From Symploca sp. SIO1C2 (GTDB lineage Bacteria; Cyanobacteriota; Cyanobacteriia; Cyanobacteriales; Coleofasciculaceae), in contig JAAHFP010000001.1 of assembly GCA_010672925.1 (NCBI GenBank), positions 308,604 through 372,603 of the forward strand: a DNA stretch of 64,000 bases, given 5' to 3'. Under the pieces are notes generated by a model. It was not told where the DNA came from, searched no databases, and saw only the letters and a list, made by a program, of their open reading frames with translations. Within the stretch, counting starts at the first letter, position 1. Each line of letters starts with the position of its first letter. This document shows, piece by piece, positions 24,887-49,669 of the stretch. The translations under genes were made by a program, and so were the position numbers.

Positions 24887-27800
24887 TCATTCTTGAGTAA
24901 CGATATCATCACAAAGCTTTCTATCCTTCTTTTCTACCGAGGGATTATTCTTCAGATAATCCCGCGCCCAATTGCAACCGCGCTCTAGTAACTCATCTAA
25001 ATCCAAACTCAAGACTGCCACTCCTTCATCAGTAGCAACGGCTATTGCTTTACCGTCGGGGCTGAAACTAAAATCCCACACACGCTCAATACTGTCAAGC
25101 CTAGTTTCTTTGAACCAAGTACCGTTAAGTATATAGAGGGTAATACCTTTCCAAGTAGCCCCGGCGAGTATTTTGGAATCAGGACTGAAGTTCATACTGC
25201 CATTAAAACTCTCTAATTTGAGGTTTTGAAGCAGAGTACCATCCCCACTCCAGAGTTTAAGAATGTCGTCATCACTAGCAGAGGCAATGGTTTGACCATC
25301 TGGGCTGAAACTGACGCTATTAACCTCATCACTATGTCCCTCAAGAGTTTGGAGTAGAGTACCGTCTCGGTTCCAGAGCTTCACGGTTTTGTCGTCACTA
25401 GCAGAGGCAATGGTTTGACCATCCGGACTGAAACTAACGCTATTGACTTCATCACTATGTCCTTCAAGAGTTTGGAGTAGAGTGCCGTCTCGGTTCCAGA
25501 GCTTCACGGTTTTGTCGTCACTAGCAGAGGCAATGGTTTGACCATCCGGACTGAAACTAACGCTATTGACTTCATCACTATGGCCTTTGAAAGTTGCCTG
25601 CAAAGTTCCATCCATACTCCAGAGTTTCAGGGAATTATTGTGATCTCCCACGCTAAAGGCAACTGTTTTACGATCAAGACTGAAACTGACTATACCAAGA
25701 CTTTGCTCTTCGAGTACTTTGAGTTCCTTACCATTACGATTCCAAAGTATTACTTGATCATCACCTACACAGCTAATTATTTTACCATCAGAACTAAAAC
25801 TGAATCTAGGGAATCTACTTTTACTGTTAAGCCCATGAAGGGTTTTGAGCATCTTACCATTTTTACTCCAAATTTTCACGGTTTTATCATAACTAACAGA
25901 AGCAATAGTCTGATTATCATCACTAAAATTAACGCTTGTGACTTTATCGCTATGCTCCCGAAGAGTTTTCCTTAGAGTACCGTCTTTGCTCCATAGTTTC
26001 ACTGTATTGTCATCACTAGCAGTAGCAATGGTTTCGCCATCAGTACTAAAGCTTACGTCATTGACTTGATTATTGTGTCCTTTAAGGGTTGCTAGTAGTT
26101 CCCCCTGAATACTCCAGAGTGTTACAGTATTGGTTGCACTGATAGAAACTACTATCCTACTATCAGGGCTAAAACAAATTTCTTTGATATTGTAGCAATC
26201 TATGGTTTTGATTAGAATGCCATTTTTTCGCCAAAGTTTTATTTCGCTGTTTTTTGCTTCACGAAATTGCTGAGTACTAACAGAAGCAATAATTCTACTA
26301 TCCAAGCTACATATGACACTTTCTACCCTGTCGTTGTGTCCAGTCAGAATTTTGACAAGAGTACCATCACTCTTCCAGAGTTTGACTAAGTTATCATCAC
26401 CAATAGTGGCAATAATTGAGCTGTCAGGACTAAAAGTAAGGGATTGGCAGCTCTCAGTATGCCCAGTCAAGTTTTTAATGATGGTTCCGTCATTCTTCCA
26501 AAGTTTGACTAAGTTATCATTACCAATGGTGGCAATAATTGAGCTATCGGGACTGAAAGTTAGGCTTTTAATCTCGTCAGTATGCCCAACCAAATTTTTG
26601 TTTAAATTACTATCAATGTTCCAGAGTTTTACTTCATTATCATCACTAATAGCAGCAATAATTGAGCTGTCGGGACTGAAAGTGAGGCTTTTGATTTTTT
26701 CAGTATAACCTTCTAAGGTTTTGATTAGAGTGCAGTCAGTTTTCCAGAGTCGTACTATGTTGTCCCTATCAGTAGTAGCAATAGTCTTACCGTCAGGGCT
26801 AACCCTAATCCTGTCAACACTACTGCTAACTTCTGGCAAAGTTTTGACTTCTCCGCTATCAGCATTCCATACCTTTACGATATTATCATTATCAGCACTG
26901 TCAGTGACAACAGTTTTACCGTCAGGACTCCAACTTATAACCGAAACATTTCCCTCAATAGTTCTTAGCAAAGTTCCTTCACGACTCAATAGTTGAACTT
27001 CTTGATAATTGCTAGTTGCAATAGTCTCACCATCAGGACTGAACTTCACTTTTCTGAAAATATTCTCATTATTTACAGCAGACAAAACAAGCCTATTGTA
27101 GATGTTCCAAATTTTTACTGTATTATCCTTGCTCGCTGAAGCTAGCAGCTTACCATCGGGATTAAAACTTAGACAAGTTACACTGTCACTGTGCACATCT
27201 AACTCTTTTGAACTGTAATCATGGGGTTTTAATACTAGTTTTTTAGCTTTATTTATTATTATCGTTTTTTCTATTGCAAGATAAGGTGCAATTTCATTAA
27301 AAGACACTAAATTTGTATCACTAACAAAATCAATATTAGCAATATTTGAACGATAGTATCTTGAAGATAAATACTTATTTTTAATTAAATTACCATTAAT
27401 ATCAAAAAACTTCAGCGATCCATATTTATTGGCGAGAACAATATTCTGATTATCAGCTGCTAACCTTAGACTAATAACACCATATCCATCGATGGCTATG
27501 AGTTTGTCGCCCTTATTATTCCAGAGTATAACTGTGCCATCTTTACCAGCTGAAGCTAGCAGTTGATTGTCTCGACTGAAACTAATGTTTTCTACACTGC
27601 TATTGTGATCTATAAGAGTTTTAATTAAATTGCCATCAATGCTCCAAAGTCTAACTGTTTTGTCTTCACTCGCTGAAGCTATTAGCTTGCTATTGGGGGT
27701 AAAGATAACACTTGTGACACTACCTGTGTGTCTTTCTAGAGTTTTGATTAAACTTCCACCAAGACTCCAAAGTTTAATGGTTTTATCTTTACTCCCTGAA

Positions 27801-30800
27801 GCAAGTAGCTTACCATCGGGGCTAAAGCTCACACTCGTAACACTACCATTATGCCCTTCTAAAGTTACTAGTAAGCTGCCATCAAGATTCCAAACTCTGA
27901 CAGTTTTATCCTCACTTGCTGAAGCAAGCAACTTACCATCGGGGCTGAAGCTAACACTAGTGACACTACCATTGTGTCCTTCTAATCGATTAAGTTCTCT
28001 TACCCCGTAAACCGCATTATTTAACTCAGTCACAACACTTAGTTGAGTTTCTTCGGGTATTTCTTCAATTGACTCCTTCAGTTTTATTGCGGCTTTGAGA
28101 GCTGATAATAATCGATCAAGCTCTCTATTCTGTCTTGAGGATAAAACGAGATTAATAAGTTCCGAATTGAGCAGTTTCTCTCGCAAAACTTCATTCATTT
28201 TCTCTTCGCTAATTTTGCGCTGCTCCCTCTCCCTCTCTAATTCAGCAATTAATCGCGCTGATTCTGGGTTTTGTGTACGAATGAAAGTTACCAGATAATC
28301 ATGAACCAGTTGATAACGATTAGCTGGAAATCCTGGCACTCTCAGCACGATCCCGGATTTCACTAAGATTTCTAAAACTGAGTCCAGTTTCTCGGCTTGT
28401 ACCTCTAACTCCAATTCCAAATCTTCACGAGTTTTGGAGGGACGAGTATTATTTTCATCAGTAAGTAAATACAAGACCAAGTTAGCAATCTGCTCATTCC
28501 CCACACCACAATCTTTAACAACATCTGCTAAAAATTGCTTTACCAGTTCGTCTTTAGTGCCCCTTGCCTGAAATTGCTCCAGGGTAGTAATATTATCTGC
28601 TTGCAGCTGCGCCCCCACTATCTGCAATTCAATCGGGCGAACTTCTCCCACTTCCCCTGACAACTCCCTAACTAGTTCCTCTACCAAGTCAGGTTCTAAG
28701 TAAAATTGAGAGCGTTGTGTTAATTTCTGGATAACAGATTTAGCATCTTCTGGGGAAAAGTTGCCCAAATAGTAGAGGAGGTGCTTGTAATTTTCATCAA
28801 ATCCTTCAAAATTCGTGGTACGAGTTAACTCCAGCAAATAATGGAGATAGTCTTCCCGCAGAGATAGGATAATCTTGAGATAAGGAATTTCTAAACAGTG
28901 GCGCAAAAACTCATAAAAGGGTCGCCTACTAGCTTGGTCTTTGTAAACAAAGAAAAATTCTTCAAATTGGTCAAAAATCAGCACTGTCAACCGATGGCGC
29001 TGTCCATTTTGTCGCAATTGTTCCAGAATTGTTTGCAGGTTTTGCCCCTCCAATCCTTTGATATCGCTAGCAAAATATTTCGTAATATTGCTAGATTGCT
29101 GAGAACCCCCTAAATCCCCCAATTCTGGGGGACTTTGAGTTTGAGCTCTTTTGGAATTAGCAACTGGGGGGCTTGAAGTCTGGGCTCCCTCAGAATTGGG
29201 GGCTGGGGGGCTTGAGTATTCAATAATGTTAGATTCCCCAGTAGTATCAACATTGGGAGTAGTAAATCCAGTCCTCCCCAGAATTGGGGGGATAGGGGGG
29301 CGATTAATGCCACGGCGGGATTCGTTATCAATGGACAATCCCTTAGCTAATTCCCCAAGCCAATCGGTATAGACATCAACAAAGATAGGTATAGCTTCCC
29401 TTCCCTCAAAATAACTAACCTCCAGCGCTGGTACTAATCCTGCCTGCAAAATCGAACTTTTCCCCACCCCCGACTGCCCATGAATTACCGTCAGCTTACA
29501 ATCAGCACGGTTAACTCGTTCAATCAGACGCTCCACATCTTGCTGCCGCCCAGAAGCTGCTACAATATCTTCTACTTGCTCAGCAACAGTTACCTGACTC
29601 CCCTCTTCCCTCCTCAAAACCGGTGGCTGCAAACGCCCTGCACCAACAAAAGCCCGCAATCCATACCGGCTCTCTACTTCCCTTTGTTCCAGTTTCAGGT
29701 AAAATGCTTCTCGATACTGACCTTGCTCAAAATAAAGCGATCGCAACTCTTGTAGTATCTCAAGATAAAGACTAAGCTGATGCTGAGGTTGAGTTTTATC
29801 CCTGGCTTGTTCTAAATTACGGATAGCCTTGGTAATTTCACCTAATCCTTGCTCTGACTTGGCTAAAATCAAGTAGTATAAAGCGCAATTAATTGACTTC
29901 GATTCAGTTAGAGTTAAATACTCCCTCCTGCCTCCTGCCTCCTGCCTCCTGCCTTCTCGAATTGCTAAAGCTTTTTGTGCCCATTGCTTTGCTTCTTGCC
30001 ACTGCTCTTTTTTGAGGGCAACTTCTGCTAAAAAGCTATAATCTTCCGCCAACCTACCTGAATTACCATGATTTTGGTGCAATTCCAGGGCTTGTTGTGC
30101 CCGGTTTTCCAGAGATTCCCAATCTTCTAAACCTTGCTGTACTTGACAGAGTTGATTAATATGTTTGGCAACTAAATCTTGCCGTTGCGCTTCCTCAAAC
30201 TTATCCAAACATTGCTGGAGATAATTCCTACTTTCGAGCCAATATTGTTCTCCTTTACTGTAGTAAGTTAAGCCTAGCTGTAGTAAAACTATACCCTGCT
30301 GTACTCTTACTCCCCCTCTTTGTACTCTTACTCCCCCTCTTTGTACTCTTTCTCCTTCCCCTTGCACTCTTGCTCCTTCCCCTTGCACTCTTACTCCCCC
30401 TCCTTGGAGGGGGTTGGGGGGTGGGTTATCCGGGGGTGGGTTAAAGCTGTCGGAGGAGGGCGAAGCATTTGGATTGTTCAATTCAGGTTTCGCCGATGAG
30501 TTATCGCTCAAATGCTTCTCCCCTACATCCCCTACATCCCCTACATTATGATTTTGAGGATTTTGGCTTTGAGATGCTTTTGGGGGTGGTTCAAAAAAAG
30601 CTAAACTTTGCTGATAATAATCCAAAGCAGTATCAAGCTGGTTATCTCTATACTGGATCAAACCCTTCATTAGAGCTAAACTAGCCTTCAACTCCGGTTC
30701 TAATTCTTGTCCACTACTTTGCAAATCCTGCTCAATAGCTTCGAGTTCATCCCCTTCTATTATAAAGTCCGGTTCCTCGACAAAGATTTGCTCTGCCTGT

Positions 30801-31267
30801 TGAGGCAATAAACCCATTAACTCCTCATCAGGAAGTTTAAACTCAAGGGGTGGACCTGCCCAACTCTTAAAATCCGGCGCTACCCGCATCAGTTGTCGCA
30901 ATACCCGATCCGTTACCCACAAGACTACCGGGAAAGGGAAACTGCGAAATTGATCTCGTACCTTATTAGTAGCTCCCAGTAAGTCATCTAGAGCCATCAC
31001 CGACTCCAAACCCAATACCATTACAGCATCCGTAGGCTGCTCTCCAAACTCGTTAACGATAGTAGTATACAGAGTCTTGGCAGAGGGTGACAGGGTTAAC
31101 TGTCGAATCTCAATGCTGCATTGCTCACACAACTGGGTTAAGATGCGATCGCGCAAACTAGTATAGTTGCACCGTACCAGAATTAAGGAAAAGCGTCCTG
31201 GACTTTGGGTAAGCGATCGCGTTAAGGTTTGGAGCGTGCGATCGTTTTCTGTATTTGGGTTGGGCAT
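24887..31267 (-). CDS. TPR-STAND NTPase-WD40 giant signalling protein
   Basis: A protein of about 2126 residues. Residues 1-170 form a domain seen at the head of cyanobacterial TPR proteins, with FPVVLWVTDRVLRQLMRVAPDFKSW. TPR-like helices run about 180-560. A STAND-type P-loop NTPase follows with Walker A GQSGVGKS at 597-604 and Walker B LIFDQFEEF around D766. About 22-24 WD40 blades fill about 1095-2095. Low-complexity linkers near 285-325 and 650-690 are encoded by tandem repeats. I start at the ATG at 31267 (MPNPNTENDR); the ATG at 31300 adds 11 hydrophobic residues coded partly by a dispersed repeat. In other systems STAND proteins switch on an effector when WD40/TPR parts sense a ligand. 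The P-loop ATPase gene upstream is probably a partner. Confidence 0.85.
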   Translation of the reverse strand: MPNPNTENDRTLQTLTRSLTQSPGRFSLILVRCNYTSLRDRILTQLCEQCSIEIRQLTLSPSAKTLYTTIVNEFGEQPTDAVMVLGLESVMALDDLLGATNKVRDQFRSFPFPVVLWVTDRVLRQLMRVAPDFKSWAGPPLEFKLPDEELMGLLPQQAEQIFVEEPDFIIEGDELEAIEQDLQSSGQELEPELKASLALMKGLIQYRDNQLDTALDYYQQSLAFFEPPPKASQSQNPQNHNVGDVGDVGEKHLSDNSSAKPELNNPNASPSSDSFNPPPDNPPPNPLQGGGVRVQGEGARVQGEGERVQRGGVRVQRGGVRVQQGIVLLQLGLTYYSKGEQYWLESRNYLQQCLDKFEEAQRQDLVAKHINQLCQVQQGLEDWESLENRAQQALELHQNHGNSGRLAEDYSFLAEVALKKEQWQEAKQWAQKALAIREGRRQEAGGRREYLTLTESKSINCALYYLILAKSEQGLGEITKAIRNLEQARDKTQPQHQLSLYLEILQELRSLYFEQGQYREAFYLKLEQREVESRYGLRAFVGAGRLQPPVLRREEGSQVTVAEQVEDIVAASGRQQDVERLIERVNRADCKLTVIHGQSGVGKSSILQAGLVPALEVSYFEGREAIPIFVDVYTDWLGELAKGLSIDNESRRGINRPPIPPILGRTGFTTPNVDTTGESNIIEYSSPPAPNSEGAQTSSPPVANSKRAQTQSPPELGDLGGSQQSSNITKYFASDIKGLEGQNLQTILEQLRQNGQRHRLTVLIFDQFEEFFFVYKDQASRRPFYEFLRHCLEIPYLKIILSLREDYLHYLLELTRTTNFEGFDENYKHLLYYLGNFSPEDAKSVIQKLTQRSQFYLEPDLVEELVRELSGEVGEVRPIELQIVGAQLQADNITTLEQFQARGTKDELVKQFLADVVKDCGVGNEQIANLVLYLLTDENNTRPSKTREDLELELEVQAEKLDSVLEILVKSGIVLRVPGFPANRYQLVHDYLVTFIRTQNPESARLIAELEREREQRKISEEKMNEVLREKLLNSELINLVLSSRQNRELDRLLSALKAAIKLKESIEEIPEETQLSVVTELNNAVYGVRELNRLEGHNGSVTSVSFSPDGKLLASASEDKTVRVWNLDGSLLVTLEGHNGSVTSVSFSPDGKLLASGSKDKTIKLWSLGGSLIKTLERHTGSVTSVIFTPNSKLIASASEDKTVRLWSIDGNLIKTLIDHNSSVENISFSRDNQLLASAGKDGTVILWNNKGDKLIAIDGYGVISLRLAADNQNIVLANKYGSLKFFDINGNLIKNKYLSSRYYRSNIANIDFVSDTNLVSFNEIAPYLAIEKTIIINKAKKLVLKPHDYSSKELDVHSDSVTCLSFNPDGKLLASASKDNTVKIWNIYNRLVLSAVNNENIFRKVKFSPDGETIATSNYQEVQLLSREGTLLRTIEGNVSVISWSPDGKTVVTDSADNDNIVKVWNADSGEVKTLPEVSSSVDRIRVSPDGKTIATTDRDNIVRLWKTDCTLIKTLEGYTEKIKSLTFSPDSSIIAAISDDNEVKLWNIDSNLNKNLVGHTDEIKSLTFSPDSSIIATIGNDNLVKLWKNDGTIIKNLTGHTESCQSLTFSPDSSIIATIGDDNLVKLWKSDGTLVKILTGHNDRVESVICSLDSRIIASVSTQQFREAKNSEIKLWRKNGILIKTIDCYNIKEICFSPDSRIVVSISATNTVTLWSIQGELLATLKGHNNQVNDVSFSTDGETIATASDDNTVKLWSKDGTLRKTLREHSDKVTSVNFSDDNQTIASVSYDKTVKIWSKNGKMLKTLHGLNSKSRFPRFSFSSDGKIISCVGDDQVILWNRNGKELKVLEEQSLGIVSFSLDRKTVAFSVGDHNNSLKLWSMDGTLQATFKGHSDEVNSVSFSPDGQTIASASDDKTVKLWNRDGTLLQTLEGHSDEVNSVSFSPDGQTIASASDDKTVKLWNRDGTLLQTLEGHSDEVNSVSFSPDGQTIASASDDDILKLWSGDGTLLQNLKLESFNGSMNFSPDSKILAGATWKGITLYILNGTWFKETRLDSIERVWDFSFSPDGKAIAVATDEGVAVLSLDLDELLERGCNWARDYLKNNPSVEKKDRKLCDDIVTQE
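25296..25664 (-). repeat. three near-identical 123-bp WD40 units
   Basis: Units at about 25296-25418, 25419-25541 and 25542-25664 (the last diverging part way) encode GHSDEVNSVSFSPDGQTIAS with hardly a base changed, while the other blades of the same protein are well diverged. This indicates recent amplification. Confidence 0.85.
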
Positions 31268-31277
31268 AAGGATAAGG

Positions 31278-31310
31278 AACCACAAAGACACAAAGAGCAC
31301 AAAGGGAATT
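31278..31310. repeat. ACCACAAAGACACAAAGAGC dispersed repeat
   Basis: Purine/CA-rich repeat next to the start of the STAND gene. A closely similar copy (ACCACAGAGACACAGAGAGC) lies at about 41390-41424, just upstream of the CHAT gene. Confidence 0.7.
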
Positions 31311-34127: not shown

Positions 34128-36725
34128 TTATCCATTCTCCATTTTCCATTCTCCATTCTCCATTCTCCATTCTCGATTATTTTCGCATTTTGCCTGACAG
34201 CGTTCCAAATAAATTTGAGCTGCTCGATCAGCCGGGTTAATTTTTAAACAATCCTGCAGCAGTTCCGCTGCTTCCTGGAAACAATCTTGATGATAGCGCC
34301 ACAAAGCTTGTTCAAAAGTTGATTTTGTAGCTAATTTACCCTTACGGAGTTCTGGAGGGTCTACCTCAAAGACTTCAAATACAAACACCATTTCTGACTT
34401 ACCTTTAACCGTTACCCGGTCAATGGCACGAAAGGCATACTCAACAGGATGGTTTAACTGCAAAAATGTGTGGTGAGAAATGAGCAACGACACCCCATAA
34501 TCTTTCGTCAGAGTTTCTAAGCGTGCAGCTAAATTAACCGCATCACTAATCACAGTACCATCCATGCGGTTCGGTCCTCCTACTGTTCCCAGCATCAAAG
34601 AACCAGTATTGATACCGACGCCAATATGGATAGTGGAACGCTCTTCTGCTTGCCGTAGAAGATTATACTCCGACAGCCGCCTTAACATAGCGATCGCAGC
34701 TTTCACGGCATCATCGGCACAGCCACTAAACAGAGCCATAATCGCATCACCAATGTATTTATCAATAAAGCCATAATTTTCAGCAATAGCTGGTTCCATA
34801 CGAGACAGGTAAGCATTAATAAATTTGAAGTTGTCTTCGATGCTCATCCGTTCCGATAGGGTAGTAAAGGAGCGGATATCTGCAAACAAAATCGACATCT
34901 CCTTCTGCACTGCTTCACCTAATTTGACATCAACAATGCTCTGTTTATTCAACAACTGGAGGAATTGACGAGGTACAAACCGTGCATTAGCTTGGTTGAG
35001 TTGATACAGCTCATTGGTGAACCTCATGCGTTCAGCTTCTGCTCGTTTGCGTTCAGTGATATCTTGAAAAGCAACGATCGCATAACGAATATTGCCTTCT
35101 TCATCGTAGATAGGAGTTCCCCAAGCTTCTATAGGAATAATCTTGTCACCTTGGTGGATATCTATATCATCAACAGCACTACTTTCACCCCTAAGTGCCC
35201 GCATCAGAGGCAAGTTGTCTACAGGATAAAGTTGATCAGTTCCTGCAACATAGTTTTGATATACCTCAGCAAATTCCTCAGAACTAGTTGAGGTTTCAAC
35301 CCCCTTACCAAATAACTCCTGGGCTTTATGATTAAGGTAATAGGGTTTGCCATTAGCATCAATCACTGCCACACCTACTGGTACAGCCTCTAAAAATTGA
35401 ATTAGCCGCTTTTCTCCTGCACGTATCGCCTCCTCTGTTTGATCTTGCAGCACCGCCTCAACTGAATGGAAATGTTCCGTTGTCGTTTCCAGCAAGATTT
35501 CCAGATCCGCTTTTTCCTGTTGCAACCAGAAACTGTGGTAAAAAATGATCAGAACAGCAGAACCAGTAAAAGCCACTAAAGGAGAAACTACAGGGAGCCA
35601 CCAGCTTGCTAAAAAAGCGACATAGCTGCCAGTAATCAGAATGCCCTCTCCTAAAGTAATGCTCAAGACCAAAACTGTCCATTTCAGCCACAGCTGCTGG
35701 TTTAACTGGTTACTCTGGAGCAAAAGCCAACACCCTGTAGCACCAACAAATGAACAAATTATAGTCCATAGCCACTCCCCCGGTTCTCTCCACACCTTAA
35801 GCAAGGGGCGTCCTTCCATTGCGGCACTGACAATCTGGCTGGCTAAATTAGCATGAATTACCACACCAGGCATTAACTGAGTAGTGTAAGAAGTCTGAAA
35901 ATTATCCTTGAGGCTTTCGGCAGTGGAACCAATCAAGACAATGCGGTTACGGACTAAATCCGGTGGTAGTTGGTTTTCTAGAACCTCTGTTAGGGATATA
36001 GTACGGAAATCTTGTATTGCACCCCGAAAATTCAACAAAATTTGGTAACCACCATCATCCCCACGAATATAGCCACCATCGTTTCCCTTAAAGGGGACAA
36101 ATACCGCTTTACCTAACCCCAATTTGGGAGCAGCTATGGGCTTCAGGTAAATATTCTCGGCTTCGAGATACATCAGAGCTAGTTTAGCTCCTAAACTAAG
36201 TTGAGTAGAACCAGCTTCTGATCTCAGGGAAAGTAAACTTCGACGCACCTTACCATCGCTATCGAGTATTAAATCTGCCACAGCTACTTGCCCTAATTCG
36301 CTCAACGTGGGTGGCGGGAGAACTCGACTACCAGCGGCTTTCTCAATACCAATGAGGTTTGGTGTAGACTCGAACACCTGAACTAGTTCCTGGTGACCAG
36401 GTTCCACCGGTAAATCTCGATAAAGATCCATTCCTATGGCCCTAGGCTGCTGTACCCTCAGGTTTTTGATGACCTGTGCTAGAGTGCCGTCGGGAATTGG
36501 CCATTGCCCAACTTGCTGAATATCTGACTCATCAATGGTGACAATAACAAAGCGTGAGTCCATTGCTTCAGGAGAGCGCAGGCGAAAAAATAGGTCAAAA
36601 CTAGCCCATTCCAGGAGTTGAAACAATCCGGCTGAACTGGCGACAATGGCCAATCCTGCTATGCTGGAAGCAATAATCAGTACTCCCCGCCACTGCCAAA
36701 TTTGAATCTTGAGTTTGAGCCACAT
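34128..36725 (-). CDS. CHASE2-PAS class III adenylate cyclase
   Basis: This 865-residue protein starts with a membrane segment, then an extracytoplasmic CHASE2 sensor (about 40-310, with FVIVTIDESDIQQVGQWP and IGSTAESLKDNF). Three membrane helices (about 320-400), a PAS domain (about 430-560) and a class III cyclase domain (about 600-770) follow. The two metal-binding aspartates are D616 (FADIRSF) and D660 (IGDAIMALF), and K656 fits ATP specificity. A short TPR-like C-terminus follows the catalytic domain. It probably makes cAMP in response to an external signal. The final residues (EWRMENGEWKMENG) are encoded by a heptamer repeat. A second cyclase lies 164 bp upstream on the same strand. Confidence 0.9.
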   Translation of the reverse strand: MWLKLKIQIWQWRGVLIIASSIAGLAIVASSAGLFQLLEWASFDLFFRLRSPEAMDSRFVIVTIDESDIQQVGQWPIPDGTLAQVIKNLRVQQPRAIGMDLYRDLPVEPGHQELVQVFESTPNLIGIEKAAGSRVLPPPTLSELGQVAVADLILDSDGKVRRSLLSLRSEAGSTQLSLGAKLALMYLEAENIYLKPIAAPKLGLGKAVFVPFKGNDGGYIRGDDGGYQILLNFRGAIQDFRTISLTEVLENQLPPDLVRNRIVLIGSTAESLKDNFQTSYTTQLMPGVVIHANLASQIVSAAMEGRPLLKVWREPGEWLWTIICSFVGATGCWLLLQSNQLNQQLWLKWTVLVLSITLGEGILITGSYVAFLASWWLPVVSPLVAFTGSAVLIIFYHSFWLQQEKADLEILLETTTEHFHSVEAVLQDQTEEAIRAGEKRLIQFLEAVPVGVAVIDANGKPYYLNHKAQELFGKGVETSTSSEEFAEVYQNYVAGTDQLYPVDNLPLMRALRGESSAVDDIDIHQGDKIIPIEAWGTPIYDEEGNIRYAIVAFQDITERKRAEAERMRFTNELYQLNQANARFVPRQFLQLLNKQSIVDVKLGEAVQKEMSILFADIRSFTTLSERMSIEDNFKFINAYLSRMEPAIAENYGFIDKYIGDAIMALFSGCADDAVKAAIAMLRRLSEYNLLRQAEERSTIHIGVGINTGSLMLGTVGGPNRMDGTVISDAVNLAARLETLTKDYGVSLLISHHTFLQLNHPVEYAFRAIDRVTVKGKSEMVFVFEVFEVDPPELRKGKLATKSTFEQALWRYHQDCFQEAAELLQDCLKINPADRAAQIYLERCQAKCENNREWRMENGEWKMENG
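34130..34175. repeat. CCATTCT heptamer array in the 3' end of the cyclase gene
   Basis: About six units of CCATTCT/CCATTTT form the last codons of the CHASE2 cyclase gene and its stop. Confidence 0.85.
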
Positions 36726-36731
36726 TTGAGC

Positions 36732-36766
36732 TTAGGTGTTAGGTGTTAGGTGTTAGGTGTTAGGTG
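36732..36766. repeat. TTAGGTG heptamer array between the two cyclase genes
   Basis: Five units of TTAGGTG lie directly upstream of the CHASE2 cyclase start. The same heptamer occurs at about 50516-50550 and, in the reverse sense, at about 62880-62930. Confidence 0.85.
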
Positions 36767-36889
36767 GATGGTTTTTTGAGTACCCCTAGATTGTGCTTTC
36801 ATTCGTCAAACATTCAATGTAGGGTCGGATGCACCAATTACTGTATCTTCGTAGCAAATTCTTGAACACCTGACACCATTTAACCTTAC

Positions 36890-38314
36890 CTAACACCTAA
36901 TACCTTTTCTCTGGGTTAACAGATAAGTAGTCATCTCTCCTTTGCCTTTAACCTGAATCTTACCCCGCTCTTCAAACTGATATTGAGATTGTAAATGCTT
37001 ATAAGTGGATTCAGTAACCTGGATGCAATCAGGAATTCCGTGAGACTCCATGCGGCTGGCAGTATTCACCGCATCTCCCCAGAGGTCGTAAATAAACTTT
37101 TTCGTACCAATTACCCCCGCCACCACCGGACCAGTATTAATACCAATGCGGATGCTCAGGTTAGCTTGGTGTTTAGCATTAAAGTGGGCGACTTCCTGCT
37201 GCATGTCCAAAGCCATTTCAGCAATTGCTTCAGCATGATCCTGCCTCGGCATAGGAAGACCACTAGCCACCATATAGGCATCTCCAATAGTTTTAATTTT
37301 TTCTAAGCCATGTTCCTCACTAAGTTGGTCAAATCCTGTAAAAATTTCGTTAAGTAACGTAACAATTTCTTGGGGAGAAATCTTTTCCGAGAGCTTGGTA
37401 AAGCCAACGATATCGGCAAACAGAATTGTTACCTCAGTAAAACCATCAGCAATGTTGCTCTTACCCTCTTTTAGTTGCTTGGCAATGGGCTCTGGTAAAA
37501 TATTGAGCAACAAGCGGTCAGACTTTTCCTGTTCCGCCCGAACTTTATTTTCGGCTCGCTTACGTTCGGTAATTTCCCATGAAACCCGTTTAAACATCAA
37601 ATTAAACGCTTGTAAAACTTCTCCTAACTCATCCCGGCGCTGCACAGACATAGCGTAAAAGTTAGGATGCTGTTGGCCATTATTATTCAGGGTTTCCCCT
37701 ACTGCCATCAGGTCATCCCGGAGTCGTAAAATCGGGTAAATAACCGTAACACCCAACACAATCATGGTGGTCGCAGTCACAAAAACAGAGATAATTAAAA
37801 CTAGACCAGCTATACTGATAATATATCGGTTCAATTGAGGTTGAATTTCTGAGGCGTCATGACGAATAACAATAATTTTTTCCACTCCTTGTTTATGAGT
37901 TGACCAAGCAACGTCATAGCGATTACCAACTAACCGACGCCTACATAGTTGGCAATCTTTAATATTCTCAATCTCCGATATTTCAATAGCAGGAAATTCA
38001 CCTTCCATAAGCAAAGATTGTCCATCTGGTTTGTAAATTGCTACTCCTTTAATTACCGGCTCACTAATAATATTTTTCAATTTTCTAGTGAGTTCTACCT
38101 CCGACATACTCTCGTCATGCCAGCGTGTTGAAGAGTTGACTACTGCTTCAGAAACTTCTTCTAAATCATTAAGTAAATCCTGTTTTTCTTTATAGTATGA
38201 AGGAACTAAAATAATTGCTTCAATAACAACAAGGCTAGCAAATATCCAAAGAGTAATATTTCGAGATAAACGAGCTTGAAATGAATCAAATAACTTTAAA
38301 ATAGGAGATGACAT
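36890..38314 (-). CDS. membrane-bound HAMP adenylate cyclase
   Basis: A 474-residue protein with a first membrane helix (about 20-40), an outside sensor region of about 120 residues holding CQLCRRR, a second helix (about 165-192), a HAMP linker and a class III cyclase domain (about 290-470). Metal-binding aspartates are D301 (ILFADIVGFT) and D345 (TIGDAYM). K341 and the D of YDLWGDAVN are the residue pair that select ATP over GTP, so the product should be cAMP. The CxxC in the sensor region may be redox-active or bind a metal; that is inference. It probably precedes the CHASE2 cyclase in one transcript or is a tandem paralogue. Confidence 0.9.
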   Translation of the reverse strand: MSSPILKLFDSFQARLSRNITLWIFASLVVIEAIILVPSYYKEKQDLLNDLEEVSEAVVNSSTRWHDESMSEVELTRKLKNIISEPVIKGVAIYKPDGQSLLMEGEFPAIEISEIENIKDCQLCRRRLVGNRYDVAWSTHKQGVEKIIVIRHDASEIQPQLNRYIISIAGLVLIISVFVTATTMIVLGVTVIYPILRLRDDLMAVGETLNNNGQQHPNFYAMSVQRRDELGEVLQAFNLMFKRVSWEITERKRAENKVRAEQEKSDRLLLNILPEPIAKQLKEGKSNIADGFTEVTILFADIVGFTKLSEKISPQEIVTLLNEIFTGFDQLSEEHGLEKIKTIGDAYMVASGLPMPRQDHAEAIAEMALDMQQEVAHFNAKHQANLSIRIGINTGPVVAGVIGTKKFIYDLWGDAVNTASRMESHGIPDCIQVTESTYKHLQSQYQFEERGKIQVKGKGEMTTYLLTQRKGIRC

Positions 38315-39992: not shown

Positions 39993-41348
39993 ATGTCCCG
40001 TTCCCTCAGAGTCCACACAGATTATATCCCAAAAGTCAAGTCAGCCCTTAGGCGCAATGGTTATCCTCGTCAGAAAGATTTAGCTGAGGAGTTATGGATA
40101 TCTCTATCAACTCTCAATAACTACCTTAATGGTAGAGCTGTAGATGTCCTGAATTTTCAAGAAATTAGTCAGCGATTGGGACAAGACTGGCAAGAGATTG
40201 CTGTTTTTGAGGATAATAATAGCAACAGTGAAGATAAGGAAAGCTTAGCATGTTTCTCCAATAAACCCGGTTGCTTAACTGAGGCTTCAGAAGCAGACTC
40301 TTTCCTCTATATAGAACGTCCTCCCATTGAACAATCCTGCTATGAAGCCCTTTTACGTTCTACTGCGCTCCTCCGGGTTAAAGCCCCGACGCTGATGGGG
40401 AAGACTTTACTGATGTCTAGAGTATTGGATAGGGTTGCTCAGCAGGGGTATCAAACTGTGTACTTGAACTTGCATCTTGCTAACCACGATGAGCTTGCTA
40501 ATATTAACTCTTTGCTCCAATGGTTTGGCTTATGTGTGAGTGAAAGTTTAGGATTGCCCAATCGATTAGCTGATTATTGGTATGAAGGATTAGCTAACAG
40601 TAAAATGGCTTGTACCAACTACTTTGAACGGTATTTGCTACGGCAGATTAACACCCCAGTGGTGTTATGTTTAGATGAGGTTGACCGAGTTTTTCCCCAT
40701 CGTGAGGTAGCCTCGGAATTTCTGGGCATGTTACGGGCTTGGCATGAAAAAGCCAAGATGGGTAAAATCTTACAACGGCTGCGATTAGTGGTCGTTCATT
40801 CCACAGAAGTTTATATTCCCCTCAATGTCAATCAATCTCCTTTTAATGTAGGAGTGCCGATTGAGCTACCGGAGTTTACCCCAGAGCAAATTAAAGAGTT
40901 AGCCCAACGATACAAACTCGATTGTACCGCTTCTGAGGTTGAACAGTTGCAGGAGTTGGTCGGGGGACATCCTTATTTAGTTGGGGAATGTTTTAACTAT
41001 CTTAAGTTTAATGGCAGTGGTTCTTGGGAGAAAGTCTTGCAGGATGCTGCCACAGAAGCGGGGATTTATCGCAATCATTTACGACACCTGTGGCAAATGC
41101 TGCAACATCAGCCAACTTTGGTTGATGCTTTGCAGGAAGTAGTGGAGGCGAATGGTTCGATTCGTTTAGAATCTCTGTTGGCTTACAAACTGCACAGTAT
41201 GGGATTGGTGCATTTACAGGGAAATGAGGTAACTCTCCGTTGTCGGTTGTATCGGGAGTATTTTCGAGAGCGATTTCATGATATAGCGCTATGCGCAATT
41301 CAAAATTCAAAATTCAAAATTCAAAATTCAAAAATAGGCCATGATTAG
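39993..41348 (+). CDS. HTH-AAA_35 NTPase
   Basis: A 451-residue protein. Residues about 10-60 form an XRE-like helix-turn-helix (YPRQKDLAEELWISLSTLNNYLNG). An AAA_35 ATPase domain follows with a degenerate Walker A, APTLMGKTLL, and Walker B VVLCLDEVDRVF; ELPEFTPEQIKELAQRY and GGHPYLVGEC are typical. The ATG at 39993 (MSRSLRVH) matches relatives; a TTG 15 bp upstream is less likely. The last residues (IQNSKFKIQNSKIGHD) are encoded by a TTCAAAA heptamer array at 41297-41332. It lies 92 bp upstream of the AAA_35-CHAT gene on the same strand. It may bind DNA, an RNA or an alarm signal and act with the CHAT protein; that is inference. Confidence 0.82.
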   Translation: MSRSLRVHTDYIPKVKSALRRNGYPRQKDLAEELWISLSTLNNYLNGRAVDVLNFQEISQRLGQDWQEIAVFEDNNSNSEDKESLACFSNKPGCLTEASEADSFLYIERPPIEQSCYEALLRSTALLRVKAPTLMGKTLLMSRVLDRVAQQGYQTVYLNLHLANHDELANINSLLQWFGLCVSESLGLPNRLADYWYEGLANSKMACTNYFERYLLRQINTPVVLCLDEVDRVFPHREVASEFLGMLRAWHEKAKMGKILQRLRLVVVHSTEVYIPLNVNQSPFNVGVPIELPEFTPEQIKELAQRYKLDCTASEVEQLQELVGGHPYLVGECFNYLKFNGSGSWEKVLQDAATEAGIYRNHLRHLWQMLQHQPTLVDALQEVVEANGSIRLESLLAYKLHSMGLVHLQGNEVTLRCRLYREYFRERFHDIALCAIQNSKFKIQNSKIGHD

Positions 41349-41389
41349 GTTTCAGACTTCGTAGTGCGATATGAAGGAAATTTACCACA

Positions 41390-41424
41390 GAGACACAGAG
41401 AGCACAGAGAGAATTTATCCACAC
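41390..41424. repeat. ACCACAGAGACACAGAGAGC dispersed repeat before the CHAT gene
   Basis: Similar over about 35 bp to the repeat at 31278-31310 beside the STAND-WD40 gene. Confidence 0.7.
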
Positions 41425-41440
41425 TAATTGACGAAATAGT

Positions 41441-44400
41441 ATGGAGACTTACCAGGTTGGTGGCGCGTTACCGATTGATGCTGACAGTTATGTGAAGCGT
41501 CAAGCAGATGAGGAGTTGTATCGCTATTTAAAGGCGGGGGAATTTTGTTATGTTTTAAATTCTCGCCAGATGGGGAAGTCTTCTCTGAAGGTGCAAACGG
41601 TAAAACGGTTGCAACAGGAGGGTATTTGCTGTGCATCTATTGATATTACCCTACTGGGTTCCCAAGAGATTTCTCCACGGGAATGGTACGGTAGCTTGAT
41701 TAGTGGTTTGGTGTCTGAGTGGGAACTTTACGATAGGTTTGATGAATATCGTTGGTTAGCACAACACCAACATCTTTCTCCGGTGCAGTGCTTTGGTAAG
41801 TTTATCCAGGAGGTACTGTTTGTCTCTATTGCCGAACCGATTGTTATCTTTATTGATGAAATCGATAGTGTTCTACAATTAAGCTTCAAGGATGACTTTT
41901 TTGCCCTTATTCGAGCTTGTTACAACCAACGAGCAGTAAATAAAGTCTACAACCGCCTCTCTTTCGTGCTGTTGGGGGTGGCAACACCAGGGGATTTGAT
42001 TGAGGATAAAGATAGGACACCGTTTAATATTGGACGTGGGGTTGAGTTGTATGGTTTTCAACTACATGAGGTTGAACCCTTAGCTAAAGGATTGTCAGAA
42101 TATGCCAGCAATCCGCAGGTTGTTCTCCAGAAAATATTAGCTTGGACAGGAGGACAGCCGTTTCTGACCCAAAAACTGTGTAAATTGGTATGTGATGCTG
42201 GGTTTACTATACCTGCTGGCAATGAAGCTCAGTTGATTGAAAAGTTGGCGCGATCGCATATTATTTCTAACTGGGAAGCTGCTGATGAGCCAGAGCATTT
42301 GAAGACAATACGCGATCGCATTCTGGCTAATGAGCAACGAGCTGCCTATTTATTGGAATTGTATCAACAAGTGTGGCAGCAGGAGGAGGTGGTTGCTAAT
42401 AACAGTTTTGAAGAAGGGAAGTTACAGTTATCTGGGTTAGTGGTAAAGCAGAGAGTAGGAAGCTTTCCAGCTCTTAAAGTTTACAACCGCATCTACTATG
42501 AAGTCTTTAATCAGGACTGGATTGAGCAAGAATTAGCTGCATTGCGCCCTTATTCAGAAGCGTTTAGGGCTTGGGTTGCTTCCGGTTGTGAGGATGAGTC
42601 ACGGTTGTTGCGAGGTAAAACTCTGCGGAATGCTCAAGCTTGGGCGAAGGGTAAGAATTTAAGTTACCAGGATCAGCAGTTTTTAGCAGCTAGTGAGAAG
42701 AAGGTTATTGAGGAGCAAATTCGAGATGCGGAATTGGAGAGGGAGAGGAAGGATCGGGAGGCCATAGAGAAGAGAAATTGGGTATTGACTGAAGCAAATC
42801 GAAAAGCTCAACGGCGGATACAGATAGGTGGAGTGGTGCTAATTGTTGCTGTATTGGGAGCAGTTGTTTCCGGAGTATTGGCAGGAAACAAGGTACTGGA
42901 AGCTAATTCTCAGGTTCAAGAAGCCAATTCTAAAGCTAAGGAAGCTAATTCTAAGTTTCAGGAAGCCAACACCAAGGTTAAGGAAGCCAGTACCAAGGTT
43001 GAGAAAGCTAACTATGAATTATCCCAAACACAGCAAAAAGTATTTGAAGAACAGAAGAAAGCTCAACAAGCACAAAACGATTTAGCCTTAGTTCAAGGCG
43101 AGAGAGAAAATATAGAACAAAGAGTACAGGATTTAGAACAACAGCACATAAATAAGTCCGAAGCATTAAATCTAGCCAACAGCGAACTGCTTGCTCTAGA
43201 ACAACAACAAAAACAGATTCAAATAAAGGCCAACGCAGCAGAGGACAGAGAACTAAAAGCAACACAAGCAATCCAAAAAATTAACAATAAGCTGGTATCG
43301 TCTACAGAGAAACTAGACAAAGCACAGCAAAATGCTCAAGCTGCTAATCAAAGAGTTGAGCTTGCTGAACAAAGAGTTCAGCAAGCTAATCAGGAAGTTG
43401 ATTCCGCCAAAATAGAGCTAGATCAAGCCAAGCAAGAAGTTCAAAATGTCTCGCTATTATCTGAACTAGCTGGAGAACTTCACAGAGAAGATAAGCTCCC
43501 TGAGGCAGAAAGAGCATGGCAACAGGCTGCTCTGTCCTTTGAGATGCAAGACTATGAACTAAAACAAGCCATGCTGTTGAGTAATATTTCCATTGCTTAT
43601 CAGCAACTTGAGAGGTTTGACGAGGCAACAAAGGTAATCTCAGAGAGTTTAAACAAATTAGCCAATGCAGATACGAAAAATTCTCCAGACGACTCAGTTA
43701 TTCTTGCTCAAGCTTTAAATACAAAAGGTCATTTACTGGCAGAGGAAGGAGATACTCCAGGCTCACTGTCTGCTCATACTCAAGCGTTTGATATTCTCCA
43801 GTCTTTTGAAGGTAATGTTACGGCACTAAATCCAGCCATACAAATTTCTTTTAGAGAAATCGTCGAGAATGTTTATCAAGGGTTTATCGGTTCACTGTTG
43901 GATTCAAAAGGAACTGACTATAACCAGCAAAATTTCATAAAAGTTCGTCAGGTTGTTGAATCCCTCTATTTGACTGAACTTAACAATTTTCACAAGATAG
44001 AGCTTTTGGATACAAATTTAGTAAGGATTGACCAGATTGATTCACAAGCAGCAGTAATCTACCCTATTATTCTACCAGACCGCTTGGAAGTAATTCTTCA
44101 TTTAGCCGGTCAACCACTACACTACTATTCAACAATTATATCTAACAACAAACTGCATAATTTGCTGGGTAATCTTAAGAATAGTTTACCGAGGAGGGAT
44201 ACGAGTTCTATTCTGCAAGAAGCAGAATCACTTTATGAATTGCTTATTAAACCAGCTGAAGCTGAATTAGCTAAAAGCAGAGTCAAGACCCTAGTATTTG
44301 TATCAAATAGTCCTCTGGGAAATATTCCCATGGCAGCTCTCTATGACGGTGAACAGTTTTTAGTAGAAAAATATGCGATCGCTTCCATCCCTGCTTTACA

Positions 44401-45049
44401 AATATTAGAGCCTCAGCCTCAGGTACAAAGACCTTTAAGAGCTTTAATTGCTGGAATTTCTGAAAGTAGGACTCACCTAGGTGACTCTTATTCTCCATTA
44501 CCTGGTGTTGCATTGGAGGTAGAACAAATTAGCTCAATGATACCTAGTTTAGTTCTACTCAATCAGAGCTTCACTAGTACAGCTCTGGAAAATGCGCTTA
44601 ATTCTTCTTACTTCCCTATAGTTCACTTGGCAAGTCATGGAAATTTTGTAGGTTCTAATACAAATGACTCATATATACTTGCTTGGGATAAAAAAATTAA
44701 AGCCAAGGAATTTGAGCAGCTACTGCGTCCAAGGAAACACGACAAATTTAACCCTATTGAATTACTCGTTCTCAGTACTTGTAATACCGCTGAAGGGGAT
44801 GGTCAAATACCTTTTGGATTAGCAGGATTAGCATTAAAGTCTAAAGTACGCAGTATTCTTAGCACTTTAACAGATGTTAACGACCAAGGTACTACTGAGT
44901 TGATAGTTCAGTTTTACCAAGAATTCACTCAACTAAACGTTACCAAAGCTGAAGCCCTCCGTCGTGCTCAGTTAACTGCTCTCACTTCTATAAATTATCA
45001 AAATCCCAGTCACTGGGCATCTTTTATTCTAATAGGAGACTGGCGGTAA
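41441..45049 (+). CDS. AAA_35-coiled coil-TPR-CHAT caspase-like protease
   Basis: A 1202-residue protein. Residues 1-330 are an AAA_35 NTPase (SRQMGKSS near 43-50, FIDEIDSVL near 130). One membrane helix lies at about 463-483. A long coiled coil (about 485-680) begins with heptad-like repeats ([12 protein letters not shown]). TPR-like helices lie at about 690-800. A CHAT protease domain ends the protein (about 850-1202), with H1066 (HLASHG) and C1114 (LSTCNTA) forming the caspase-like His-Cys dyad. CHAT proteases cut partner proteins when activated. The architecture (NTPase switch, oligomer-forming stalk, protease) recalls apoptosome or inflammasome proteins. It follows the HTH-AAA_35 gene by 92 bp. 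The target is unknown. Confidence 0.87.
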
Positions 45050-47836: not shown

Positions 47837-49669
47837 ATGAGGAAAAGGCTAAGAATTGACATTACCAGAAGTGCCATCGCAGCGGCGGTCATTTTTTTTG
47901 TTTTAACCTCAGGGTTTATGCTCCATAGGTTCTACAGCTTTTACCACTCCTACAGTTCCTTCGATCAAGGGATTTTTAATCAAGTTTTTTGGAACGGTAT
48001 CCACGGTAGGTTCTTTCAGAGTTCCCTTTCTTCTTACCTTTCTTCTGCTGTACTCCATGATGGCAATCTTCCGACGGTATTCTACCATCGCTTGGGACAG
48101 CATTTTACCCCAGCTTTGTTGCTCTGGTTACCTATTTATGCTCTGTCTCCCTCATCTCCGACTTTGCTGGTATTGCAAGCAGCGCTGATGACAGCTGCGG
48201 GGTTAGTGCTTTATGCCTTGGCGAGGGTTTACCTCAGTCCCCAGTTGTCAACCATGATTACCGTCAGCTTCTACGCTGCCAATGTGGTAATTGGACCAAC
48301 TTTAGCTAACTTCCACGACTCCTGCCAACTGCCTCTATATATGTTTGGCTTACTACTAGCTTTAGAAAAACGCTGGTGGTGGTTATTTGCTGGCTTAGCA
48401 GTTTTGCTGCTAGGAGTCAGGGAAGATTCGGGGATTCTCCTGTTTAGTGTGGGGTTCTATTTGGTGTTAAGTAGGCGCTATCCCCGTATAGGTTTGATCC
48501 TGTGTACCCTCAGCTTCGGCTATATGCTGGTGCTGACTAACCTGATTATGCCTCTATTTTCCGACGATATTTCTCGCCGGTTTATGATAGAGCAATTTGG
48601 TGGCTATATAGAAGGTAGTGAAGCTTCTACTCTTGATGTGATTTGGGCACTTCTGAGTAATCCCTGGCTACTGATCAAGGAAATTTTCACCCCCTTTGGA
48701 CGGACAATACAATATTTACTGGCTTATTGGCTACCCCTCGCATTTATACCAGCCATTTCTCCTACTGCCTGGATGGTAGCCGCATTTCCCTTACTCACAG
48801 CTTTGATGCGGCAGGATTATTGGGCATTGTCGGTTAATATGCGCTTTGCAATCAATGTAGTTCCAGGAATATTTTACGGTGCAATCATCTGGTGGTCTCA
48901 GCATCCTGGGGTTTTTACCAGGGGAACAGAACCTACCCAGGAGGAACCCACCCCTAACCCCTCCCAGGAGGAACCCACCCCTAACCCCTCCCAGGAGGAA
49001 CCCACCCCTAACCCCTCCCAGGAGGAACCCACCCCTAACCCCTCCCAGGAGGGGAACCGGAGGCAGGAGGGTTTTAAAAGCGGATTTACTCTCAAAGCCG
49101 GATTCCGACGCTTTTGGATATTCTGTCTGAGTCTGTCACTGGTGTTTACCTTTACCTCCAATCCCCATCGCGCTTGGTCTTTTCTTTTCCCTACCTCTAT
49201 CGACCCTTTGATATATATCTCCGTACCTCGTCAATGGCAACATGCAGGGCAAATTCGCTCTTTGTTAGAACAAATTCCCTCAACTGCCAGTGTTTCTGCC
49301 ACCACACATATTGTTCCTCATCTATCTAACCGTCGAGAAATACTAGGTTTTCCCTCACTGCGGTTGATTAATGATGCCAGACAAGAGATTAGTGTAGATT
49401 ATGCGATCGCAGATTTGTGGCAATTTCAACAGTATGAGGTAGCCTTTGATGATGATCGTGAGCGTTTACGTAAGCTAGTTCCCGCGATCGAACAGATACT
49501 CGCTCAGGGCAATTATGGCATAATTGACTTTCGAGATGGAGTCATGTTGCTCAAGCAAGGAGTTACTTCTGAGTCTACAGCATTGTCTGCTTGGCAAAAT
49601 TTTCGAGAAGAGATTGAGCCAATTTTGCAGAAAATAGGCAAAGCGGGTATTGAAGGAATTAAGCTATGA
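47837..49669 (+). CDS. DUF2079 membrane protein with repeat-encoded linker
   Basis: A 610-residue polytopic protein of the DUF2079 family, with about ten helices in residues 15-365. YSSFDQGIFNQVFWNG, GQHFTPALLLWLPIY, NFHDSCQLPLY and GVREDSGILLFSVGFYL are family text. A foreign-looking stretch at about 369-408 consists of four EEPTPNPSQ units encoded by a 27-bp tandem repeat. That repeat is also found as non-coding DNA elsewhere in the window. Normal sequence (a membrane helix and the C-terminal domain) resumes afterwards, so the frame was preserved. The TGA stop lies within the left end of a small repeat element. The function of DUF2079 is unknown; a glycosyltransferase-like fold is often suggested. 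Confidence 0.87.
   Translation: MRKRLRIDITRSAIAAAVIFFVLTSGFMLHRFYSFYHSYSSFDQGIFNQVFWNGIHGRFFQSSLSSYLSSAVLHDGNLPTVFYHRLGQHFTPALLLWLPIYALSPSSPTLLVLQAALMTAAGLVLYALARVYLSPQLSTMITVSFYAANVVIGPTLANFHDSCQLPLYMFGLLLALEKRWWWLFAGLAVLLLGVREDSGILLFSVGFYLVLSRRYPRIGLILCTLSFGYMLVLTNLIMPLFSDDISRRFMIEQFGGYIEGSEASTLDVIWALLSNPWLLIKEIFTPFGRTIQYLLAYWLPLAFIPAISPTAWMVAAFPLLTALMRQDYWALSVNMRFAINVVPGIFYGAIIWWSQHPGVFTRGTEPTQEEPTPNPSQEEPTPNPSQEEPTPNPSQEEPTPNPSQEGNRRQEGFKSGFTLKAGFRRFWIFCLSLSLVFTFTSNPHRAWSFLFPTSIDPLIYISVPRQWQHAGQIRSLLEQIPSTASVSATTHIVPHLSNRREILGFPSLRLINDARQEISVDYAIADLWQFQQYEVAFDDDRERLRKLVPAIEQILAQGNYGIIDFRDGVMLLKQGVTSESTALSAWQNFREEIEPILQKIGKAGIEGIKL
48941..49048 (+). repeat. four 27-bp units in frame inside the DUF2079 gene
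   Basis: Units begin at 48941, 48968, 48995 and 49022 and encode EEPTPNPSQ. The sequence is that of the ACCCACCCCTAACCCCTCC intergenic repeat. Confidence 0.92.

Follow-up and report, generated by a model that had tools for sequence, protein, structure and literature searches.

Paired AAA_35 NTPases in a Symploca genome: an HTH protein and a CHAT protein as candidate responder and envelope sensor

RESULTS

The HTH and CHAT genes of the locus

The 64,000-nucleotide stretch of DNA analyzed here (the window) comes from contig JAAHFP010000001.1 of Symploca sp. SIO1C2, a cyanobacterium with a large genome (8.67 Mb in 245 contigs), and carries two adjacent genes on its + strand, A and B, whose products each contain an AAA_35 NTPase domain. 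The original prediction was that the product of gene A, with an XRE-like helix–turn–helix (HTH), senses or recruits and that the product of gene B, with a CHAT protease domain, oligomerizes and cuts, possibly as an immune or programmed-death system. Both genes and all of the domains on which that proposal was built were recovered from the open reading frames (ORFs), Pfam and structure models, including the transmembrane (TM) segment and the two residues of the catalytic dyad. As argued below, the pair is probably a member of a widespread two-protein relay of STAND-type NTPases, in which protein B would be an envelope sensor and protein A, through its HTH, the responder.

Gene A (39993..41348, +) encodes an XRE-type HTH followed by a STAND-like NTPase, and its product is predicted to be a cytoplasmic output protein (ORFs, Pfam, class profiles and model). 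The longest frame in the ORF list starts at TTG 39978; the ATG at 39993 (MSRSLRV...) agrees with the starts of relatives (MPRSLRV/MSRSLRV). The HTH_3 domain (40071..40196, +; Pfam E = 1.8e-6, residues 32–73 of the long frame) is matched by helices in the model. It is followed by a strong AAA_35 match (40287..41270, +; E = 1e-130, 436 bits) of the subfamily termed class A below, in which a motif scan found the P-loop MGKT, the Walker B motif LCLDEVD and GGHP. A dispersed short repeat (41273..41359, no strand assigned) with many further copies in the genome at 83–96% identity encodes the final residues of A, in its C-terminal tail, and extends into the 92-base gap between the genes. In scans for promoters and terminators, the A/B locus gave nothing beyond shuffled sequence.

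In the structure model (predicted local distance difference test score, pLDDT, 88.6), protein A has a STAND/CED-4/NLR fold with NTPase, helical and winged-helix parts arranged as in CED-4/NB-ARC. The top structural matches were archaeal ATPases (2qen and 2fna, which we take to be of MNS type), and ORC/Cdc6, CED-4 and plant nucleotide-binding leucine-rich-repeat proteins (NLRs) were also among the best, with Z scores of 20.1 to 2qen, 18.1 to CED-4 and 16–18 to plant NLRs over ~300 residues. The comparison with apoptosomes made in the original prediction is apt for the fold, because A matches CED-4 and plant NLRs, and nucleotide-switched oligomerization, characteristic of STAND and CDC6-ORC-type AAA+ NTPases, may be expected. 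A sequence search of the PDB with A matched three RecA chains over 40 residues, and the N terminus of A gave a weak PADLOC-DB match (PDC-M64C, E = 0.0037).

Gene B (41441..45049, +) encodes a predicted membrane-spanning sensor with the order AAA_35, TM, coiled coil, TPR and CHAT (ORFs, Pfam and model). Its class B AAA_35 domain (41462..42493, +) is the weaker Pfam match (E = 2.9e-31, 109 bits, residues 8–351), with P-loop QMGKSS and Walker B motif IFIDEID by motif scan. Hydrophobicity places a single predicted TM helix at residues 462–480 (42824..42880, +). The model shows a long stretch of helices or coiled coil (42890..43480, +), whose length is not conserved and which is mostly missing in other B proteins with CHAT (B-CHATs), and then TPR-like helices (43454..43984, +; Pfam and model), for which TPR_12 matched at E = 2.1e-5, under its curated cut-off. 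The CHAT domain (44219..45040, +; residues 927–1200, Pfam E = 1.8e-48, 166 bits, with a fold match) is predicted to be extracytoplasmic; alignment locates its His–Cys dyad at H1066 in VHLASHG (44636..44638, +) and C1114 in LSTCNT (44780..44782, +). The closest fold to the model of B (pLDDT 79.6) was the TPR-CHAT of Craspase (Csx29; E = 1.4e-12), with separase also matched, and the TPR-CHAT part had no PDB sequence match at E 0.01. Profile, fold and dyad are those of the CHAT protease family, and B may be proteolytic. Weak PADLOC-DB matches fell in its coiled-coil region (JetC, 8.6e-6; LmuB, 4.7e-4). Pfam found no histidine kinase or receiver domain in A or B, and there were no adjacent MoxR and vWA genes, as in a vWA-MoxR system, among the part of the window ORFs that was scanned.

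Two AAA_35 subfamilies encoded side by side

The genome holds 83 CHAT and 58 AAA_35 matches. When scored against profiles of the two window proteins, the AAA_35 ORFs fell into two groups, and the interval from -40 to +24 bits of score difference was empty; the shared AAA_35 core proposed originally thus holds at the level of the Pfam family, but comprises two distinct subfamilies. In this genome 21 ORFs are of class A and 25 of class B; the ORF counts given here take in fragments, such as the two A pieces of locus L136 and several short B ORFs. Among A genes with at least 1.5 kb of downstream sequence, 15/19 had a B on the same strand no farther than 4 kb downstream, 11 of these within 300 bases, and none (0/19) had a B upstream. 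With 25 B genes placed at random in 8.67 Mb, ~0.6% of A genes would have such a downstream neighbor, so the pairing is not due to chance.

A broader set was obtained by scanning contigs from 84,980 species with an alignment of A; the 79 best loci, out of at least 544 relatives, were kept, all from species whose names we take to be cyanobacterial. As these are the best matches to A, the set is skewed to A proteins like that of the window. Of the 76 A genes in it whose downstream sequence was long enough, 54 were followed on their strand by a B no more than 4 kb away (no more than 300 bases in 33), and for 5 a B lay upstream; three of the 54 are fusions of a B and an A domain into a single chain, found in the three species of L157, L183 and L190. 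When all 82 A ORFs of this set were counted, 55 had a downstream B and 7 more a divergent one. Distances between NTPase domains of paired A and B proteins (n = 65) were correlated (r = 0.70; 0/2000 permutations as high), which shared inheritance could partly explain. Both subfamilies keep their nucleotide-binding motifs: the P-loop [ML]GK[ST] is present in 112/113 A and 102/110 B, and an acidic Walker B motif of the D-[EDNQH]-x-[DNEK] type in 104/113 A and 108/110 B. Among 292 genomes sampled from the phylum (116 genera), 88 genomes in 49 genera matched a profile of XRE-/HTH-type A at E 1e-60, a cut-off that class B could also reach, with a best E of 6e-101 or lower in all matches listed.

The exact combination in the window has a narrower distribution. 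An XRE-HTH A directly before a B-CHAT was also found at L105, L106 and L107 (three genomes, two other genera of the family) and at L123 of Moorena, the last very close in sequence to L107 and perhaps of one genus with it; in L105 the A gene is split in two ORFs. A B-CHAT of Nostoc (L167) is paired with an A bearing a short CHAT, and that of L079 is a fragment at a contig end, without its NTPase part. The genes of the window are therefore a real pair, and the co-occurrence expected across cyanobacteria exists for the A/B arrangement, which is widespread, but as far as seen the HTH and CHAT ends occur together only in near relatives.

With respect to a third component, the ORFs between A and B were mostly unrelated and none was constant. 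Small families recurred in three sets: L055/L133/L141, L167/L174/L187 and L048/L059. The proteins of the first (L055 6173–6592, L133 8984–9451 and L141 9045–9629) are related to one another, have exported-looking N termini and are possible periplasmic partners. Among the B proteins themselves, one (L051, 8803–13425) carries two tandem class B AAA_35 domains followed by TM and WD40 and adjoins an A with short CHAT, and those of L107 and L123 contain in-frame tandem repeats resembling DPPQPPLTRGE between conserved blocks of the AAA_35 domain.

Segregation of the end domains

The domains attached to the two NTPases were compared by Pfam. At the N termini of 78 A proteins the matches included TIR_2 (28), HTH_3 (13), Pkinase (8), Guanylate_cyc (5), short CHAT (5), Sigma70_r4_2 (5), GerE (4), Trypsin_2 (3) and caspase C14 (1), among the 25 of 27 families listed. 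At the C termini of 34 B proteins, 21 others having been set aside beforehand by a WD40 motif count, they included TPR_1 (7), CHAT (5), Peripla_BP_6 (5), GAF (4), CHASE2 (3), WD40 (3), PAS_9 (3) and Pkinase (2), among the 25 of 92 families listed. Home-made profiles applied to 112 A N termini and 91 B C termini gave groups confined to one side. TIR (32), XRE (35), an HTH group presumed to be vMAP-like (21) and short CHAT (8) occurred in A and in 0/91 B; WD40 (45), TPR-CHAT (10, GUN4 proteins included), periplasmic-binding protein (PBP; 6), CHASE2 (5), GAF (5), GUN4 (4) and COP23 (3) occurred in B and in 0/112 A. In the Symploca genome, A types also include GGDEF, nucleoside phosphorylase and kinase, and B types Macro, dynamin-like, DPBB and trypsin-COP23. 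Inspection by eye showed neither the His nor the Ser motif typical of trypsins in the trypsin domain of the L048 B protein; in the A protein of L236 the trypsin His motif is present.

The ends of A are thus output-like (TIR, HTH, cyclase, short CHAT and GGDEF) and those of B input-like (WD40, periplasmic-binding, CHASE2, GAF and TPR-CHAT). The partners of XRE-type A proteins are mixed and include PBP, CHAT, GUN4, GAF, COP23, CHASE2 and WD40 B proteins. With HTH and TIR only on A and receptor-like groups only on B, the assignment of sensing to the HTH protein and cutting to the CHAT protein is not supported. Class B AAA_35 also occurs C-terminally in receiver-PAS or kinase-containing proteins (L045 13389, L050, L060 and L061), a place where a histidine kinase is often expected.

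Membrane topology of B and fate of the CHAT dyad

A TM helix lies 40–180 residues past the NTPase in 65 of 91 B proteins. Lysine and arginine were richer before than after it in 55 of these 65 (p = 1e-9; in the window, 6 in the 20 residues preceding and 3 following), and cysteine density dropped past it in 62/63, from a mean of 1.21 to 0.40 per 100. The window B has nine cysteines, seven in the NTPase and eight before the TM, leaving only C1114 after it. By type, a TM was found at a threshold of 1.6 in 42/45 WD40, 10/10 TPR-CHAT-group and 5/6 PBP proteins and in 0/5 GAF-type B, the last of which keep their cysteines (1.05 per 100); GAF domains are expected in the cytoplasm. None of the 21 A ORFs of the Symploca genome has a TM. 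Relatives of the CHAT part were sought by a TPR-CHAT search of 292 genomes; 64 had a match and 29 loci were analyzed, one per genome, and within the stretches of DNA available each of them appears to encode a stand-alone TPR-CHAT protein. A signal-peptide-like opening was present in 26/29, two others being cut by the locus edge and one failing.

Charge bias, post-TM cysteine depletion and exported relatives all predict that the CHAT of the window lies outside the cytoplasm and away from A, separated by the single predicted TM from its own NTPase, at odds with the idea that it serves A as a partner in one compartment. That idea could be kept if the hydrophobic segment only anchored B and the CHAT were cytoplasmic, as would fit the low model confidence around the segment and the presence of GUN4 at the same position. 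Given the positive-inside bias (55/65), the cysteine depletion (62/63), the lack of TM in 5/5 GAF-type B and the exported look of the relatives, we regard this as very improbable.

The dyad is intact in four of seven B-CHATs (the window, L106, L107 and L123) and lost in the other three, by H to N in L105 and by C to S in L167 and L079. It is kept in 29/29 stand-alone relatives (counted by regular expression, except L217, read by eye); the difference gives a Fisher p of 0.0049, or 0.025 without L105, values that are optimistic because the sequences are related. An intact dyad leaves room for a protease acting on its ligand or on itself, or for one directed outwards by A. These losses bear on the proposal that the HTH protein detects a signal such as invader DNA and assembles with B, whose CHAT then executes death or defense. 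The four intact dyads, the STAND fold of A, and Craspase TPR-CHAT/Csx29 and separase as closest solved folds of B speak for it; the predicted position of the CHAT outside the cytoplasm, the dyad lost in 3/7 B-CHATs versus 0/29 stand-alone proteins, the TIR, kinase, cyclase and other output-like domains that elsewhere fill the HTH slot, and PADLOC matches that are weak only make it quite unlikely.

Pairs outside the cyanobacteria and on mobile elements

Pairs were also found on plasmids. One of Abditibacteriota carries a TIR-A and a B-PAS-GAF without TM, and on two of Candidatus Chlorohelix (Chloroflexota) a TM-bearing B precedes an AAA_35 gene, the order being B then A. On the first Chlorohelix plasmid Pfam places WD40 on B and a kinase on its partner, whose gene is cut by the stretch and scores as A over B by a small margin (219 versus 207 bits). 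Among 72,556 plasmid records, 38 matched A, class A and class B not being distinguished in these matches; 50,697 phage records gave no match to A at E 1e-3.

Plasmid pLBX of Leptolyngbya boryana carries a further pair (LBWT_RS31275/31280), with an XRE-looking A and a B that the NIES-2135 record annotates as WD-40. In Nostoc sp. ATCC 53789 a trypsin-TIR-A is paired with a B-TM-WD40-Amidase_3. A peptidoglycan amidase at the end of one B would suit a relay running inside-out, in which sensing by A inside the cell would lead, through B, to the activation of a periplasmic CHAT protease and the cleavage of envelope proteins. Such a relay would fit the same topology data (charge bias and cysteine depletion) and the dyads intact in 4/7 B-CHATs. 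Against it, the ends of many B proteins resemble receptors (PBP/ANF receptor, CHASE2, GAF and PAS), A ends are mostly catalytic or DNA-binding, and the L048 B trypsin looks dead; we judge it unlikely.

Other features of the window

A further class B AAA_35-TM-WD40 protein of 687 amino acids is encoded at 134–2197 (+). Its ORF ends inside the WD40 repeats and may be broken or an assembly artefact; no class A partner was found in the stretch examined around the gene. A second kind of STAND NTPase, a TPR-nSTAND1-WD40 protein of 2137 amino acids, is encoded at 24887–31300 (-). Just upstream of the pair lie two adjoining Guanylate_cyc-family cyclases (34128–38314, -), one with CHASE2-PAS-cyclase architecture and the other with a weak HAMP match. 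Short tandem repeats occur in a DUF2079 gene near 48900–49130.

DISCUSSION

The polarity opposite to that of the original prediction is the likelier one, because the end domains segregate, the CHAT is predicted to be extracytoplasmic and the dyad is lost in three of seven B-CHATs. Beyond the computed gene pairing, two subfamilies, B-A fusions, end-domain segregation, topology signals and intact P-loops, we infer a ligand for B, direct contact between B and A, signaling in that direction and a transcriptional output. The class B NTPase of B would lie in the cytoplasm, with one TM helix crossing the membrane and the coiled coil-TPR-CHAT part outside, where the CHAT would be an input module (peptide-binding, self-cleaving or a pseudo-protease). 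A signal would reach the B NTPase, which would pair with the class A NTPase of A; the latter would switch nucleotide state or assembly and so change DNA binding by the HTH. Across the class, B would sense outside the cytoplasm if a TM is present and inside if it bears GAF or PAS, and A would act.

Several observations weigh against this reading. In the broad set, 20 of the 82 A ORFs are without any B inside 4 kb. Kinases sit on both sides (10/112 A N termini, 2/91 B C termini and 7/8 long B N termini), so the kinase-A of Chloroflexota says little on polarity. The TM region of the window B is poorly modeled (pLDDT <50), GUN4, which is cytoplasmic in other settings, stands behind a TM in 4/4 B, and only 2/5 CHASE2 B have a TM in the tested interval, that of the other three being nearer the NTPase. 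The signal-peptide-like test is loose, a looser form being passed by 113/392 other ORFs, 16/111 B and 6/113 A. Intact CHAT dyads could mark envelope outputs, as could the Amidase_3 domain on a B protein, and the motif pattern search missed the A-side trypsins. Finally, no common operator motif emerged when the exact inverted repeats that precede 20 XRE-type A genes were compared visually.

Plant paired NLRs combine a sensor with integrated sensing domains and a helper with an executing domain. The A/B pair resembles them, by analogy, in having two STAND-type NTPases between which sensing and executing are split; it differs in that its sensor usually spans the membrane and its outputs include HTH, kinase and cyclase. 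The TPR-CHAT fold of B is like that of the CRISPR-associated Craspase Csx29, but the window B adds an NTPase and a TM, neither of which, to our knowledge, is present in Craspase TPR-CHAT. HetF of Anabaena likewise combines CHAT, TPR and one TM in a cyanobacterial membrane protein, but its CHAT region is N-terminal (amino acids 1–555; PMC8406250). From the excerpted text of that paper we infer that the TM of HetF follows its CHAT region; in the window B the CHAT is C-terminal, past the TM, and AAA_35, which B possesses, is not mentioned in those excerpts.

Among known STAND systems, nSTAND2, as described in excerpts of Kaur et al. 2021 (PMC8195603), is a mobile two-gene operon with variable domains attached, in which the NTPase with eroded NTP-binding motifs carries the effectors (GT4 and HEPN). 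A and B are likewise adjacent STAND NTPase genes with variable domains, but both P-loops are kept, and effector-like ends are on A and receptor-like ends on the usually membrane-spanning B. The same excerpts name, after Leipe et al. 2004, an 'Npun2340/2341 family' of MNS-clade STAND NTPases, to which AAA_35 may correspond; the available literature text on the clade was found to mention neither an A/B split nor the pairing nor a transmembrane sensor. The pair was not found described in the literature searched, preprints and most subscription journals lying outside that search, nor in the excerpted texts of PMC7159879, PMC10907252, PMC8406250 and PMC5587647.

Immunity is plausible for part of the class because TIR, caspase and protease modules occur on A; immunity or cell death is accordingly possible for the class, without specific support for the window pair. 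More generally, we lean slightly towards AAA_35 proteins forming a general bacterial NTP-driven signaling system, in which a mostly membrane-spanning sensor B with interchangeable, sometimes dead, receptors works with a cytoplasmic executor A with interchangeable outputs (TIR, HTH, kinase, cyclase and protease). This would be a parallel to the histidine kinase and response regulator, built like sensor/helper NLR pairs. If so, the sensor/helper arrangement of NLRs would have a bacterial counterpart that spans the membrane, with NTPase pairs coupling signals perceived at the envelope or in the cytoplasm to transcriptional outputs or to TIR, kinase, cyclase or protease modules. The CHAT domain of a protein of this kind may then be an input rather than an executioner, and a testable function would be available for many cyanobacterial 'AAA-like domain-containing' proteins, many of them with WD40 ends.

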